24,048 bases of DNA from a virus. A program made the translations under genes and the position numbers. The DNA is taken from IMG/VR virus record IMGVR_UViG_3300044629_000391, positions 1 through 24,048 of that record; one strand, 5' to 3'. The notes under the pieces are model-generated. The model searched no databases and was not told where the DNA came from. It saw only the letters and a list, made by a program, of their open reading frames with translations. This document shows positions 394-18,171 of this stretch, one piece after another. Position 1 is the first letter of the stretch; every line of letters starts with the position of its first letter.

Positions 394-587
394 ACGGCGA
401 TGACATGATCTGCCTCAAGTGCGAAAAGGTCGTAAACCTTAACGCTATGGGCTTATGCGTCCCATGCAGAACAGCAACGTGCAAAAAATGCGGTAAAACT
501 TTTAAGTTTAGCAAAGATCAGTCTGACCACTGTTCTCGGTGCCGGTTAAAGCGTCGAAAACAGCTATCACGTCTTCAAGACTTCTAG
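390..587 (+). CDS. Small zinc-ribbon protein, four CxxC knuckles
   Basis: A 65-residue protein from ATG 390, chosen because it forms an ATGA overlap with the preceding stop; a GTG at 363 would add nine residues inside the upstream gene. Four CxxC pairs are visible: C8/C11, C23/C26, C31/C34 and C48/C51, enough for two zinc ribbons. The C-terminus is basic (RLKRRKQLSR). Such proteins often bind DNA, RNA or a protein partner, but the specific role cannot be told. Its last 80 bases overlap the 3' end of the convergent VRR-NUC gene on the other strand, so both strands are coding there. Confidence 0.6.
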   Translation: MNGDDMICLKCEKVVNLNAMGLCVPCRTATCKKCGKTFKFSKDQSDHCSRCRLKRRKQLSRLQDF

Positions 588-924
588 CGACCAAACAGAG
601 CGCGCCAAGGGATGCCATTTCACTCAAGAACTGCTTTTGCTCTGGAGTTATACGCCCTTTAGCGCTCTTCACTTCAATACAAAGCATCTTACCAGACCAT
701 ATGCCAAGAATGTCGCTTGTTCCCTTTTGAGAGAATGGATCGTTTGAGCGTCTGAACACCTTCCTAGTCGGATCAAAGGTACCTATGCTTTTATTTTTCC
801 AAGCCTTAGTCTTCGGCTGGTAGTTGAGCCACGCTAGGATAGAGCGCTCAATTTCTCGTTCTGATGGAGTCAATTTTGTTTTCGATGCGCTCAAGACGCC
901 TCTCGATTTGCGTTTGACGTTCAC
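508..924 (-). CDS. VRR-NUC domain nuclease (PD-(D/E)xK fold)
   Basis: A 138-residue protein matching the VRR-NUC group of PD-(D/E)xK nucleases, found in phages and in the FAN1 C-terminus. Visible motifs are E26 in the first helix, KGTSDILG with D71, IEVK with E84 and K86, and the helix PEQKQFL with Q97. Phage members are proposed to act on branched DNA, for example as Holliday-junction resolvases that clear junctions before packaging; that role is inferred here. The GTG start at 924 has a good AAAGGA site about 8 bases upstream. It overlaps the preceding gene by 77 bases. A TTG at 873 would shorten it but lacks a clear ribosome site. The 3' end overlaps the convergent zinc-ribbon gene. Confidence 0.8.
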   Translation of the reverse strand: MNVKRKSRGVLSASKTKLTPSEREIERSILAWLNYQPKTKAWKNKSIGTFDPTRKVFRRSNDPFSQKGTSDILGIWSGKMLCIEVKSAKGRITPEQKQFLSEMASLGALCLVARSLEDVIAVFDALTGTENSGQTDLC

Positions 925-1654: not shown

Positions 1655-2161
1655 TTAAGCCTTCCCCCTTTGAGCAAGATCAATAGCCGACAGGTAAAGA
1701 TTCACTTTATCCACGTAAGCCTGATTCTTATACGCACCATTTAGCCCCTTAATTGGGCTACCAGCATTGTATGATGCTATAATATCGTCACGCTCTTTAT
1801 GCTTTGAGGCAAGGCGCTTTAGAAGTTTTGCGCAGTATTCAAGATTAGTTTTCTCATCCAAAAGCTGAAACATCGGACCCTTAAGGCCAAGCTCGCGAGC
1901 CACTGCTCCCATAATCTGACAAAGGCCGTAGCTCGTCATCTGCAGGACGGTCTCAGTAGCTTCGGTGACTCCGTTGTCTTTTGCATGATCTTTCGTTTTA
2001 AAAAGCCACTTGTAATGAGGCTCAAAGCGGACGGCCCACCTGTTGTTAGAGCTTTCCGTTTGAATAATAGCAGCAAGCAGATTCTTCGGTACGTTCTCTG
2101 CGTCTGCTACGTCTTCAATAAGCTGCCAGGGTAGCCTCATGACCCATGCGTTTTGGTTCAT
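1655..2161 (-). CDS. Lytic transglycosylase (SLT-type) endolysin
   Basis: A 168-residue protein with the goose-type/SLT lytic transglycosylase pattern: catalytic Glu at E36 in IIQTESSNN, the core SYGLCQIMG, and the later IASYNAGSP motif. Enzymes of this family cut the MurNAc-GlcNAc bond of peptidoglycan, forming 1,6-anhydro-MurNAc. No signal peptide is visible, so it would need a holin if it acts at lysis. Because it directly follows the internal virion genes, a virion-borne role in cell entry is also possible, but the small membrane genes that follow favour an endolysin. The start ATG 2161 overlaps the upstream stop as ATGA; a second Met at residue 8 is an alternative. Confidence 0.85.
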   Translation of the reverse strand: MNQNAWVMRLPWQLIEDVADAENVPKNLLAAIIQTESSNNRWAVRFEPHYKWLFKTKDHAKDNGVTEATETVLQMTSYGLCQIMGAVARELGLKGPMFQLLDEKTNLEYCAKLLKRLASKHKERDDIIASYNAGSPIKGLNGAYKNQAYVDKVNLYLSAIDLAQRGKA

Positions 2162-12223: not shown

Positions 12224-12628
12224 TTAGCGTACCACTTTAGCGCGGGCTTCAGCGCGCAATGTTTTGATCTCAGCAGGACATGGCACACCTGCGTCCACTT
12301 CCCGGATGATAAGCCAGTCAGTCGATGCAAGGTAGGCCAGAGCCTCAGCGTTGATAGCCTCTTGTGCAACCTGCGCCGTGATGTCCTCGATCTCGACAGT
12401 ATACTCGGCTTTGAGCTTCACCCACTTCTGGGAGACGCCCTCTGAACCGGAGCGCATCTCTTCTTCGAGAACGTCAGCGTCGTCGTATGCTTCAGCCATC
12501 GGCTCGTCTTTATGGAGCACCCAGCGTTCGGGCTTGCCGAAGCAAGGCTCGTAATGAGCCTCATCGGCAAAGTCCGAAGTCCAAGAGTTTGTAATGATTC
12601 CGTTTTTTCTAACGCTATATTTGATCAT
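12224..12628 (-). CDS. Tail-fibre assembly chaperone-like protein
   Basis: A 134-residue protein. The C-terminal part (AYLASTDWLIIREVDAGVPC, then PAEIKTLRAEAR) matches the segment L.STDW..IR..D.G.P.P.E....RA..R that recurs in phage fibre-assembly chaperone-like proteins. The N-terminal part holds a short beta-like opening (MIKYSVRKNGIITNSW) and an acidic middle (EAYDDADVLEEEMRSGSEG). Its location directly downstream of the large fibre gene fits a chaperone for that fibre's trimerisation. The ribosome site GGGGAA lies about 7 bases upstream of ATG 12628. Chaperone function is inferred. Confidence 0.55.
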   Translation of the reverse strand: MIKYSVRKNGIITNSWTSDFADEAHYEPCFGKPERWVLHKDEPMAEAYDDADVLEEEMRSGSEGVSQKWVKLKAEYTVEIEDITAQVAQEAINAEALAYLASTDWLIIREVDAGVPCPAEIKTLRAEARAKVVR

Positions 12629-14744: not shown

Positions 14745-16412
14745 TCAACCGATGAAGTTAATTGCCACAATTCCACTAGATACAGACACAGTCGAATCAA
14801 GACGTTTTAAGCTAACCCGAGTACCGGCAGGGATTGAGTGTTCAATCGTCTGGTCGGAACCTGGACCCATTACAAGCTGAAGCACCTCAGAAAGAGCCGC
14901 TCCAGTGTAAACTCCGATAAAAGCTCCAGTCGTATCGAGGAGCTGAAGTTTCTTTACCGCCGCAGCAGTTGAAACAACCACAGCAATTGGTGAACCCGAA
15001 CTTCCTGGAATGGTGTTGCCTGGTAGCGAAGTATCCAAGATGCCAACATCAAGAAGATCGACCACCGACAAGGTATTGACGTCAACCTTACCAATAGTGT
15101 TGGTCCCGCTTGGCAGTGCAGCTACAATGTCGACCTGGACTTCAGTACCGGAGACACATCCAGCCAAGGAGCTAGTGTCAGCCTCTACAGACGCAAGAGT
15201 AGACTCGGTAGCAGCGCCAGCAGGAAGCGCGGAAGTCACTACGTCAACCTGAAGCTCATTGCCGCTGATAGCGTTGTCAATCAGCTCGACAGCCGTCTTA
15301 ATAGCCGCAAGCGTGGTTTCGGTAGCGACAGCGTTTCCAGCTCCATCCGTCACTTTAATGGCGGTCTGGTCGCTTGCGATGACAACCGGCAAGCTGTTTG
15401 CCATCGTGTCTTGGCCAAGAACCGCAGCATCAAGGCCAGCAAGGGTGGACTCGGTCGTGAGGGCGCCCGATGGGGTGACTTTTACGTCGACATAGCCGCC
15501 GCCACCGCCGGTCGTCTCACCGTGAATGATCGTGTTAGTTACAAGACCCTTATCGGTGCCTTGCAGGTTAGTCGAAAGAAGAACCACGTCCGCGACATCG
15601 CCAGCGCTGTCAACAATCTGACTCTTTTGAGTGCCGTCAGTTTGAGCGGCAGCAGTCGCCAAGGTGCTTACAGTGGCCTCTGTGGCCAGTGTTGAAACAG
15701 TCGCTTCAGTCGCAAGGGTTGATACTGTTGCCTCAGTCGCAAGCGTGGCAACCGTGGCTTCCGTCGCCAAGGTGCTGACAGTAGCCTCTGTAGCTAAGGT
15801 AGATACCGTGGCTTCGGTAGCAAGGGTGGCAACAGTAGCTTCAGTAGCCAGGGTGGCGAGCGTCGTCTCGGTGGCTGCATCAGGCGGGAGATCGACCACT
15901 CGGGTATTGATCACGCCTACCGCATCAGTGCTGATGACATGGACCTGACTTCCTGAGTAATCATATCCGGCAATAACCTTCTGCACTGCCGGAAGAGGAT
16001 CTCCGGAAGCAGCAGTCGCCTGCTCTACCGAAGTCGTCTGAAGCACGCCTCCGCTATCCACAAGCGGATACTTATGCCGGTAGCAGGCTACCAGATCGAG
16101 CGTAGCCGGAGCAGCAGGCAGAGTCTCTGCAAGGGTGATGGTCTGCCCGTCTACGTCCCAAACCTTAACTTCCTGAGAGGTATTAACAATCAGGAGCACG
16201 TCACCTTTAAGGACAGCGTGACCGACGGGTGCGATTATCTGTTCTGCGGTAGTTCCAGCCTGGCATGGGATGTTGCCATCGACTAGGTAGACAAATTGGT
16301 GAGCTACGACCGAAGAGCCATATTGCAGCTCTCTGACAGGCTCAATAGTCTGAAACTGAGCCGATAGACGGTCGTCCTTTTCCTGCGTGCTGTAACCCCG
16401 CGGCGTACTCAT
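14745..16412 (-). CDS. Fibre-like structural protein with eight tandem nonapeptide repeats
   Basis: A 555-residue protein. Residues 1-170 form a beta-rich N-terminal part. Residues 180-251 are eight tandem nonapeptides: one ATETTLATL and seven ATEATV(A/S)TL. Downstream, single TE(S/T)TL units recur (TTESTLAGLDAA, ATETTLAAIKTAVEL, ATESTLASVEADTSSL) between short beta segments. The C-terminal 100 residues have VKKLQLLDTTGAFIGVYTG and HSIPAGTRVSLKRLD, probably a beta-sandwich tip. The regular helical repeats suggest a trimeric shaft. GAGGTG lies upstream of ATG 16412, and the start overlaps the endonuclease stop as ATGA. Assignment as a fibre is inferred from repeats and location. Confidence 0.6.
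   Translation of the reverse strand: MSTPRGYSTQEKDDRLSAQFQTIEPVRELQYGSSVVAHQFVYLVDGNIPCQAGTTAEQIIAPVGHAVLKGDVLLIVNTSQEVKVWDVDGQTITLAETLPAAPATLDLVACYRHKYPLVDSGGVLQTTSVEQATAASGDPLPAVQKVIAGYDYSGSQVHVISTDAVGVINTRVVDLPPDAATETTLATLATEATVATLATEATVSTLATEATVSTLATEATVATLATEATVSTLATEATVSTLATEATVSTLATAAAQTDGTQKSQIVDSAGDVADVVLLSTNLQGTDKGLVTNTIIHGETTGGGGGYVDVKVTPSGALTTESTLAGLDAAVLGQDTMANSLPVVIASDQTAIKVTDGAGNAVATETTLAAIKTAVELIDNAISGNELQVDVVTSALPAGAATESTLASVEADTSSLAGCVSGTEVQVDIVAALPSGTNTIGKVDVNTLSVVDLLDVGILDTSLPGNTIPGSSGSPIAVVVSTAAAVKKLQLLDTTGAFIGVYTGAALSEVLQLVMGPGSDQTIEHSIPAGTRVSLKRLDSTVSVSSGIVAINFIG
15660..15875 (-). repeat. Eight 27-bp tandem repeats encoding ATEATV(A/S)TL
   Basis: Eight 27-base units with no spacers, all in frame within the fibre-like gene (residues 180-251). 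The peptide is nearly invariant but codons differ widely: serine is written as AGC, TCA and TCT in different copies, and Ala, Thr and Val codons also vary. Unit 4 and unit 8 are the closest pair (3 differences in 27 bases). The A/S pattern (A, A, S, S, A, S, S, S) hints at a higher-order three-unit duplication. Confidence 0.9.
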
Positions 16413-16894
16413 AATGACACCTCATTCAAAAGCGCAAATTCACCAAAAATTTCTTTGGCCCATTCGTTGTATTGAATGGCTGCGCCGATTTCAGATTTAA
16501 ACATTTTTGATTTTCTAAGGCCAATAGGCTTTGAAATAATAGTTGCCACCCATCTATTTCGAGACGGCTGCCATCTGACGCCTTTATATTTGCTTGTAAA
16601 ATCACCTTTTGGCTTCTGCCTATTCGCAAGATTTTGCGATCTGGTGGCCAGCCTTAAATTTTCTTTGGTGTTGTCTAATTTATTTCTGTTCTTGTGATCT
16701 ATGTCCAAAGAGTCGTTTTTCATTATTTCTTTGTGCAAATAGATCATTTTTTGTTTCCCGTTGTCTTTTTTTCCCCAACGAAAAACATAACCATTCCACT
16801 TTAAAAACCAGCTATAATTAGCGGCCCAAATGTACTCTTCGGCGTCAACTAATGCCGTTTTTTTGCCGCCACATATTTTTAGCTCTGCGCTCAT
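16409..16894 (-). CDS. Free-standing HNH homing endonuclease with AP2 DNA-binding domain
   Basis: A 161-residue protein. An HNH nuclease core spans about residues 50-92: YLHKEIM with H54, LDIDHKNRNKLDN with the D65/H67 pair and N69, then ENLRLATRSQNLANR. A C-terminal AP2 domain follows (about 101-157: SKYKGVRWQPSRNRWVATI, then FKSEIGAAIQYNEWAKEIFG). HNH-AP2 proteins are mobile endonucleases that cut a recipient phage DNA and spread by recombination. It interrupts a run of fibre genes and is visibly more AT-rich than its neighbours, which supports separate acquisition. A GGGAGGGAG ribosome site precedes ATG 16894. Both domains look intact. Confidence 0.9.
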   Translation of the reverse strand: MSAELKICGGKKTALVDAEEYIWAANYSWFLKWNGYVFRWGKKDNGKQKMIYLHKEIMKNDSLDIDHKNRNKLDNTKENLRLATRSQNLANRQKPKGDFTSKYKGVRWQPSRNRWVATIISKPIGLRKSKMFKSEIGAAIQYNEWAKEIFGEFALLNEVSL

Positions 16895-16940: not shown

Positions 16941-16968
16941 AGTGTAGTGGAAACCGTAATTAGTTCAA
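16941..16968 (-). promoter_or_regulatory. Weak sigma70-like promoter candidate before the homing endonuclease
   Basis: On the minus strand TTGAAC (16963-16968) and TACACT (16941-16946) are separated by 16 bases, each matching 4 of 6 bases of the -35 and -10 consensus. The -35 element overlaps the last codons of the spike gene. The endonuclease start lies about 40 bases beyond a likely +1. This is suggestive only, since a match this weak occurs by chance. Confidence 0.22.
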
Positions 16969-18171
16969 GGCTTCCACGATCATATTTAGCTCGGTAACGA
17001 GCAGGTTGTTAGCGTTAGATCCGTTGGCAATAAACAGCTCAAGAAAGTCATTTGTCGTCAGTTCCACGATAGCCTGGGAGTAGAAGTTTTCGTTTCGGCC
17101 CGTGGCGCTTGTCGTCGCCTGAGATTCTGACTCTGCGATGGTCTTACCGTTCTTGGCAGCCCTGACCAGAATAATAGTATTGTTGGTTGTAATTGCTTGC
17201 GCAGAGCAGGAGGCTGTCACCCGGAAAGATCGAGTGATGCCGCCGGTATAGGTCAGCCGGTTATTAGTATGATTGAACTTCTGGTTAACTGAGCTTGCCG
17301 TGGTGGTCCCTAAGATTTTCTCGAAAACCCCTGTGGTCGCGATCGTGTTTTGGGTCGTGTTGTTGGTGAAGTAGCACTGTCCGATTTCAGCCGAGTTTCC
17401 GATGCCCTTACAGTTGGTGAATAGAGCCTTATTGTCATTAAACTGCACGCCTGCTGTGTAGGTTGCTCCACCCGAGAAGTTACAAGTGTCGAGGATATAG
17501 CCCTCGACAGGTATGACAGCAGAAGTGCTGACGTTGATCGCGGTAGCCCCACCGAAGGCGACGAAAGAGCTATAAGTAACCCTGATCCGCCTGGTAATCG
17601 TGAGAGTTGAGGGGAAGTTGAGCGTCGTCTGAGCAGCTACGCCCGAGAACAGGCACTGAACGAAGCCAACAGTGCCGATCGTTCCGTTGAAGGTCATGCC
17701 CGAGCTGTTCAGTAATGCGCAGTCTGACATGATGAAGTTTGAGTAGTTCTGGACCGTACCTACTCCTGAACCGCCACCAGAGGAGTTGCAGTCAAGAAAG
17801 TTTACGCCAAACCAATCGAGCGCAGCCGTGGGCGTACCAGAGCCATTAAGGTCTAGCGCCGTTCCGTGAGTAATGGTCAGGTTCCGCATCGGGAGACTGT
17901 ACTGCGAGGTAATCAGCGCAGTCGCAGCCGCTAAACCTGTGGACTTTAGTACACAGTTTTCTGAGCTTCCACCGATGATAGTCGTGTTCTGGCCGCAAAC
18001 AATGCGAGCGCCTAAAAGATCTACCGTCGCCGTGATGAAATAGGTCTGGTTGTCTAGAAGCGTAATAACGCCCGATACCGCTTCGGGAAAGTCTTCGACC
18101 TTATCGATAAACTCGATCTTGGTAGACTCTAGGAAGTTATTGTAACGCGCGTATTGCTCAAGAAAACCCAT
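16960..18171 (-). CDS. Beta-helix tail spike with C-terminal jelly-roll domain
   Basis: A 403-residue protein. The N-terminus (NFLESTKIEFIDKVEDFPEA) leads into repeated short strands typical of a right-handed beta-helix (TYFITATVDLLGARIVCG, CVLKSTG, MRNLTITHG, FLDCNSSGGG, FIMSDCALLNSSG, FVQCLFSG, LDTCNFSGG, LFTNCKG). The last 100 residues (RSFRVTASCSAQAI, IILVRAAKNGKTIAES, NDFLELFIANGSN, VTELNMIVEAL) look like a jelly-roll trimer domain seen in many phage and virus fibres. Spikes of this type bind or cleave surface polysaccharide, but I see no clear catalytic residues. The ribosome site is poor; a GC-rich hairpin lies just upstream of ATG 18171. Confidence 0.7.
   Translation of the reverse strand: MGFLEQYARYNNFLESTKIEFIDKVEDFPEAVSGVITLLDNQTYFITATVDLLGARIVCGQNTTIIGGSSENCVLKSTGLAAATALITSQYSLPMRNLTITHGTALDLNGSGTPTAALDWFGVNFLDCNSSGGGSGVGTVQNYSNFIMSDCALLNSSGMTFNGTIGTVGFVQCLFSGVAAQTTLNFPSTLTITRRIRVTYSSFVAFGGATAINVSTSAVIPVEGYILDTCNFSGGATYTAGVQFNDNKALFTNCKGIGNSAEIGQCYFTNNTTQNTIATTGVFEKILGTTTASSVNQKFNHTNNRLTYTGGITRSFRVTASCSAQAITTNNTIILVRAAKNGKTIAESESQATTSATGRNENFYSQAIVELTTNDFLELFIANGSNANNLLVTELNMIVEALN

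Follow-up and report, generated by a model that had tools for sequence, protein, structure and literature searches.

Described alpha/beta coiled coils

Alpha/beta coiled coils are rare three-stranded rods in which a six-residue helical stretch alternates with a three-residue triangular beta-layer; their description draws on a few structures and a single long array of nonads found in nature (PMC4786415). That array belongs to Tcar0761 of Thermosinus carboxydivorans (DUF3782 group; PDB 5APZ), a bacterial coiled-coil protein with 14 nine-residue units in tandem between flanking heptads. The same account gives the residue rules as aliphatic residues at a and beta-1, a small residue at beta-2, and T, S, D, or N at beta-3, and it describes two spacings of the layers, nonads and hexads. 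A cap network with D, E, or Q "almost always" at g and K or R "broadly conserved" at e is presented there as frequent and non-defining. The only examples of hexad spacing known previously were tandems of two layers (PDB 2C3F and reading frames resembling it), and the discoverers of the fold failed to build a hexad fibre (PMC4786415). Among the matches listed in our literature search on natural nonad arrays in phages, only this paper was relevant.

Here, we describe a tandem array of eight nonads in P0001, a fibre-like protein encoded in a virus record. The array likely adopts the alpha/beta coiled-coil fold and serves as the shaft of a homotrimeric fibre on the virion of an SU10-like podophage. 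With Tcar0761, the array has in common the aliphatic-A-T beta-layer, the aliphatic a, and the T cap, and the arrays of its relatives run into heptads as the Tcar0761 array does (PMC4786415). It differs in having E at e and T at g (K and D in Tcar0761), in leading into AAAQTDG and not into heptads, and in its setting, since Tcar0761 is no phage fibre. The tail-fibre hyaluronidase of Streptococcus prophage SF370.1 (2C3F; PMC4786415, Table 2) is closer in setting, as it is a trimeric phage fibre whose coiled coil contains several beta-layers, including two at a six-residue distance, and its AATKAYVD neck resembles the single AATETTL motifs of P0001. Unlike the array, it has four layers of mixed spacing in an unrelated sequence and no uniform array. 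The stalk of Actinobacillus OMP100 (5APP) resembles the array in that a nonad is inserted in a trimeric stalk, but it contains a single KAD layer of the C-capping type and belongs to an adhesin, not to a phage (PMC4786415).

Setting and domains of the fibre gene

The window, meaning the whole stretch of DNA analysed, comprises 24,048 bases of virus record IMGVR_UViG_3300044629_000391 and carries its structural genes on the minus strand. The P0001 gene (Table 1) sits between SU10-type capsid and adaptor genes (SU10_MCP, 35 bits against a cutoff of 24.1; SU10_adaptor, 45.8 bits against 27), and the presence of both identifies the setting as that of an SU10-like podophage. The next structural gene upstream (16960-18171) matches the tail-fibre profile phrog_24754 (E = 1.2e-11), and a gene downstream (12224-12628) has the tail-fibre-assembly profile phrog_4912 as its second-best match (E = 3.2e-6). 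Judging from these neighbours, P0001 is most likely a virion fibre, of the tail rather than of the head. Directly upstream of the fibre gene lies a free-standing HNH endonuclease gene reminiscent of homing endonucleases (16409-16894, minus strand; HNH_3, E = 3.9e-8, with an additional subthreshold AP2 match). Genes for a VRR-NUC domain protein (508-924, minus strand; barely above the cutoff) and an SLT transglycosylase (1655-2161, minus strand) are found near one end of the structural block.

Table 1 Features of the P0001 gene, in window coordinates
Feature	Position	Strand	Remarks
P0001, fibre-like virion protein, 555 aa	14745..16412	-	among SU10-type virion genes
Small beta-barrel domain, residues 39-114	16071..16298	-	mostly confident model, pLDDT 81-92 in blocks 41-110
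Proposed entry beta-layer A-A-T after LPPD, residues 179-181	15870..15878	-	register assignment
Eight nonads, residues 180-251, proposed alpha/beta coiled-coil shaft	15660..15875	-	ATETTLATL + 7 x ATEATV(A/S)TL
Proposed last beta-layer L-A-T before AAAQTDG, residues 251-253	15654..15662	-	register assignment
Single motif LTTESTLAGLDAAVL, residues 318-332	15417..15461	-	helix 321-332 predicted right after T320, low pLDDT
Single motif VATETTLAAIKTAVELIDNAIS, residues 362-383	15264..15329	-	helix 365-383 predicted right after T364, low pLDDT
Single motif AATESTLASVEADTSSLA, residues 400-417	15162..15215	-	helix 403-417 predicted right after T402, low pLDDT
C-terminal beta-sandwich, residues 447-555	14748..15074	-	pLDDT 72-86 from residue 471; end conserved in relatives

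The predicted model of P0001 has low confidence in its middle parts. Its beta-barrel aligns with 74 residues of the LKA1 tailspike gp49 (Z = 8.9; rmsd 2.3) and also with phage tail proteins. The C-terminal sandwich shows weak matches to CBM36, the C1q head, and the KHP40 trimeric cement protein (Z = 6.3 to 7.0), a likeness that would suit a trimeric tip without proving one. When the whole model was compared with the PDB by Foldseek, there was no match at an E value of ≤0.001; 11 matches in a viral library at the same threshold were set aside because their TM-scores were ≤0.19. A phmmer search of the whole protein against the PDB gave only an unrelated match (E = 0.24). Pfam yielded nothing for P0001 up to an E value of 0.1 and, for the array fragment, only an ISL3 helix-turn-helix (E = 0.74). 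The profile phrog_30808 of PHROGs, which has no assigned function, matches residues 171 to 261 (E = 1.2e-5), possibly through the repeat alone. In INPHARED, tblastn gave no match for the whole protein (E = 0.001), for the array plus flanks (E = 10), or for a typed module query (E = 0.01), negatives that say little because BLAST masks low-complexity sequence.

The nonad repeat

The initial annotation had described eight identical nonapeptides, and its coordinates are exact (residues 180 to 251, window 15875 to 15660). Seven of the units are alike apart from position 7, which is A in two and S in five, whereas the remaining one (ATETTLATL) differs at positions 4 and 6, with T and L. Serine is encoded by both AGC and TCN as had been noted, in the order TCT, AGC, TCA, TCA, AGC, and TE(S/T)TL units do recur singly later in the protein (TESTL, TETTL, and TESTL at residues 320, 364, and 402). 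The array is far beyond chance: over the best stretch, 58 of 63 residues are identical to the residue nine further on, compared with a maximum of 18 in 2,000 shuffles of P0001. At the DNA level, it is weak by Tandem Repeats Finder (period of 27, 69 to 74% matches).

The hydrophobicity of the array has powers of 69, 33, and 52 at 4.5, 3.0, and 2.25 residues per turn, respectively, and of 0.07 to 1.0 at 3.4 to 3.8 residues per turn. The strict nine-residue period leaves no heptad or hendecad core, and a regular coiled coil of either kind was ruled out by the power of 0.07 to 1.0 at periods of 3.5 to 3.67. These near-zero values bear out the earlier remark that the unit is not a heptad. The distinct fold that had been anticipated is also indicated, as the already known alpha/beta coiled coil and not as the beta-solenoid that had been offered as one option.

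On the plus strand, an open antisense frame of 94 residues with VASVA-type repeats (15664-15948) is probably a by-product of the codon periodicity of the array. P0001 weakly matches a plus-strand stretch overlapping this frame (15646-15894; E = 2.6e-4).

Unit number and selection among relatives

We found 38 related loci (given here as L numbers), two of which have the same protein as the window. Closer relatives have the first ~160 and the last ~110 residues in common, with modules between them, and five of these (L003, L007, L008, L010, and L012) are without the array. At the array site, L008 reads GAATSAAQTDGSQK, and L006 reads GAAT, eight units, and AAAQTDGTQK. Arrays of at least three units are present in the window (8 units), L006 (8), L004 (12 and 4), L005 (6 and 4), L014 (3), L045 (at least 6), L046 (6), L064 (4), and L047; the unit finder used gave no run of two or more units in the remaining loci of the 38. 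A comparison of repeat number among related phages, which the initial annotation had suggested, thus shows that unit number differs. A single insertion point between (G/D)AAT and AAQ(T/A)DG holds 0, 6, 8, or 12 units in proteins that are alike at both ends, and the arrays of 3, 4, and 6 units sit elsewhere. The entry GAAT is common to most array-bearing relatives. Whole-unit loss or gain still happens: over 3,158 nt, L045 differs from L006 by one mismatch and one missing 27-nt unit, to which an assembly effect may contribute because L045 ends inside its array.

Synonymous divergence among the window's units is saturated (all pairs, pS = 0.78 and pN = 0.11). Pairing units 1 to 6 of the window with those of L006 gave a dS of 0.36 and a dN of 0.048, in agreement with the selection on the protein that had been proposed from the window alone. 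Across 15 paired units (window/L006 plus L004/L006), we counted 29 synonymous and 5 nonsynonymous codon differences. The L006 units enter both comparisons, the window's units 7 and 8 are doubtfully paired, and one L004/L006 pair with 9 differences was excluded. Four of the five nonsynonymous changes are at position b (A/S), and one is T/S. Free variation at the protein level, raised earlier as a possible objection, is not what the relatives display; the unit is kept.

Codon choice had also been suggested to guard against recombination between DNA repeats. We find no sign of this in the window, where same-codon pairs make up 68 of 223 (0.305), against 0.305 expected from independent draws from the window's codon usage. 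As the codons differ the way independent draws would, selection against DNA repeats is not needed. Among seven other arrays, four do not deviate significantly from expectation, the closely similar L006 and L045 fall below it (0.251, P = 0.05, and 0.224, P = 0.04, respectively), and L046 lies above it (0.443; P = 0.026). Together, saturated synonymous sites and chance codon sharing indicate that the array is old, or that its units have fully diverged, while the protein was held. Window units 1 to 8 pair with L006 units 1 to 8 better than in any of 500 shuffled orders, with units 7 and 8 pairing poorly (7 and 9 differences); in paired unit 6, the window encodes serine by TCA and L006 by AGC. Against L005 and L046, pairing in the window's unit order was no better than chance.

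Fit to the alpha/beta register

We searched 177,635 distinct PDB sequences with the array by phmmer without naming a target. Up to an E value of 10, a single chain was returned, 5apz_A, which is the Tcar0761 construct (E = 0.39, not significant), and the alignment falls in the predicted register. A profile of nine array sequences again gave 5apz_A alone (E = 1.5, not significant). The array scores 16.4 bits against the Tcar0761 insert, a value reached by none of 300 arrays after full shuffling and by 6 of 300 arrays with permuted units. Of the nine possible rotations against the Tcar0761 unit, the best (13 or 16; next, 10 or 8) was that in which both a (V) and beta-1 (L) are aliphatic, and in this rotation beta-2 is A and beta-3 is T. 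Its score is matched by 123 of 30,240 permutations of the S unit.

The residue rules of the alpha/beta coiled coil hold in all eight window units. In a set of 51 units (8 from the window and 43 from relatives), for which the unit finder had already required part of these rules, a is V or L in 51, beta-1 is L, V, or I in 51, beta-2 is A in 48 and G in 3, and beta-3 is T in 49 and S in 2; the outward positions b and c vary the most. This set excludes L045 (L006 lineage, with an array truncated where the contig stops), L001 and L002 (the window's protein), the second array of L005 (a near copy of that in L004), L047 (irregular), two-unit arrays, L053, and L054. Elsewhere the rules are broken at a by Q in L061 and A in L068, and at beta-1 by R in L048/L049 and L052; A is also found at a in 3 of the 17 nonads of L047. 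The usual cap residues of known layers are replaced throughout, with T at g and E at e in all 51 units.

Three results are independent of how the register was set: array exits, single motifs, and the spacings in L047 (see below). Five distinct arrays of at least three units, namely, those that do not exit by ATAAAQ(T/A)DG and do not stop at the end of a contig, run on as heptads with the last V or L at a; two of these exits, in L004 and L046, are related. Their core sites are hydrophobic in 19 of 20 cases, compared with 6 of 50 other sites, and none of 200,000 shuffles was as good. The rule that a layer leads into e-f-g-a is therefore observed in relatives, the window's own exit being of the AAAQTDG kind. 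Ten distinct exits of two-unit arrays give a weaker and short signal: 18 of their 40 core sites are hydrophobic, compared with 15 of 100 other sites, and of these 18, 14 fall among the 20 sites of the first two core positions and 4 among the 20 of the next two. These exits include L068, L048, L052, and three L056 runs; the copies of L048 in L049 and a duplicate L056 exit were not counted again. The 34 single motifs, three of which are also among the five exits and a few of which are retained chance pattern matches, prefer the same phase of seven (0 of 5,000 shuffles). In the low-confidence whole-protein model, the helix begins exactly one residue past the motif T in all three single motifs of P0001, and the low-pLDDT residues 362 to 383 carry the heptad series L-I-V-I-I in register.

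We also built a crude threefold backbone as a feasibility check and not as a structure, without sequence, with the beta-2 hydrogen bond imposed and from 26 starts. The arrangement is sterically possible, and the four best solutions bury a, beta-1, and beta-2 the most, at 15 to 17 A per nonad. Their burial ranking picks the proposed register in all four for this array and in two of four for the Tcar0761 control. A second family of solutions buries other positions at a nearly equal penalty.

Proposed shaft

From these patterns, we infer a trimer with the alpha/beta fold. The chain would enter at AAT (179-181) after a proline turn, alternate between helical stretches and layers, and exit at LAT (251-253). 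Within each unit, E-A-T-V-(A/S)-T would make up a short helical stretch (positions e-f-g-a-b-c) whose V would lie in the trimer core. The L-A-T that follows would form the triangular beta-layer: each chain would pass about 120 degrees round the axis, the small A in the middle would pair with its counterparts in the other two chains, and the T would cap the next helical stretch. Eight units with the AAT entry and LAT exit layers would thus give nine layers in a rigid, interlocked rod. Because each 27-nt unit would close its own register, whole units could be gained or lost without disturbing the flanking domains. The differing unit numbers of the relatives probably set fibre length, and we infer that the array serves as a length-tunable spacer.

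Alternative folds

The alternative that fares best, although we consider it unlikely, is an uninterrupted alpha-helix running the length of the array, either on its own or packed with other straight helices in a bundle (18 residues making 5 turns). AlphaFold2, given the array alone as a monomer with 3 sequences, predicts such a helix: it spans fragment residues 11 to 93 without a break at a pLDDT of about 98 in the top model of five, four of which have a mean pLDDT of 90 to 92 and one of 55. The whole-protein model, also a monomer, disagrees, as the array there is without helix (pLDDT of 31 to 41); the alignment of relatives for folding held 12 of the 38 loci plus the query. We regard monomer helices predicted by AlphaFold for repeats with shallow alignments as weak evidence. 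Thr and Val are poor helix formers, and each unit contains three Thr and one Val. Moreover, the hydrophobic power of 0.07 at 3.6 residues per turn means that such a helix would have no single hydrophobic face, and it gives no reason for the L047 spacings of only 9 and 6.

Those spacings, both multiples of three, would suit an all-beta trimeric rod of (A-T-x)3 triplets, such as a triple-stranded beta-helix or beta-spiral, as would the Thr-rich composition, the triplet subperiod ATE ATV ATL, and the high powers of hydrophobicity at 2.25 and 3.0 residues per turn. Such a rod is nevertheless improbable: the array is without Gly or Pro turns, the relatives' arrays pass unbroken into heptad helices in a fixed register, and the single motif copies start helices straight after their T in the low-confidence model. 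A disordered Thr/Ala-rich linker kept only by composition would fit the low pLDDT of the array in the whole-protein model and its low-complexity sequence but is very unlikely given the fixed E and T in 51 of 51 units, the strict spacing of 9 (or 6) in arrays of at least three units, and the purifying selection (dS and dN as above), with nonsynonymous change almost only at b.

Mixed spacing in L047 and related repeats

The alpha/beta coiled coil also offers a reading of L047 (2629-3159; IMGVR_UViG_3300009082_000062), where 21 layers are spaced by 9 residues 16 times and by 6 residues 4 times, with no other spacing (in order, 9,9,9,9,9,6,9,9,6,9,9,9,9,9,6,9,6,9,9,9). All of the six-residue steps read ATEATT, with AKEATLALV coming next; the 15-residue pairs are recoded at the DNA level, and the array runs into heptads. 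A DNA scan for the hexad motif found no contig besides that of L047. It is possible that L047 is a natural hexad/nonad alpha/beta coiled coil.

More tentatively, an environmental phage family may build its fibre shafts from natural alpha/beta coiled coils with a cap chemistry of their own (L-A-T-E-x-T for M-A-T-K-x-D) and set their length by whole 27-nt units, L047 mixing nonads and hexads in a 21-layer array that would be a long hexad-containing alpha/beta fibre; we would not yet put this wider reading on a par with that of the window's shaft. We would class the window's array as a predicted variant of an established fold that occurs here in a new setting, and L047 may be the more striking case. 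If correct, the relatives would provide a natural series of 3 to 12 units plus one mixed 9/6 array with which to test the requirements of the fold. They would also illustrate a plain mechanism of fibre-length change, by in-frame 27-nt steps that keep both flanking domains in register.

Outside this group, a genome scan for cellular arrays confirmed only L053 and L054 (short frame), both of which look coincidental and were set aside. L053 (5001-5204) is a Bacteroidales gene with an in-frame, ATEATV-like TEATVSTVATEATVSTQATGATAYTEGTEATL stretch in an otherwise enzyme-like protein, and this stretch could be a translated DNA repeat. In other phages, L048/L049 and L056 carry 14-residue repeats, KDFATQTTLASLEG, and related DFATETTL units, possibly a beta-layer plus a heptad repeat with one extra residue.
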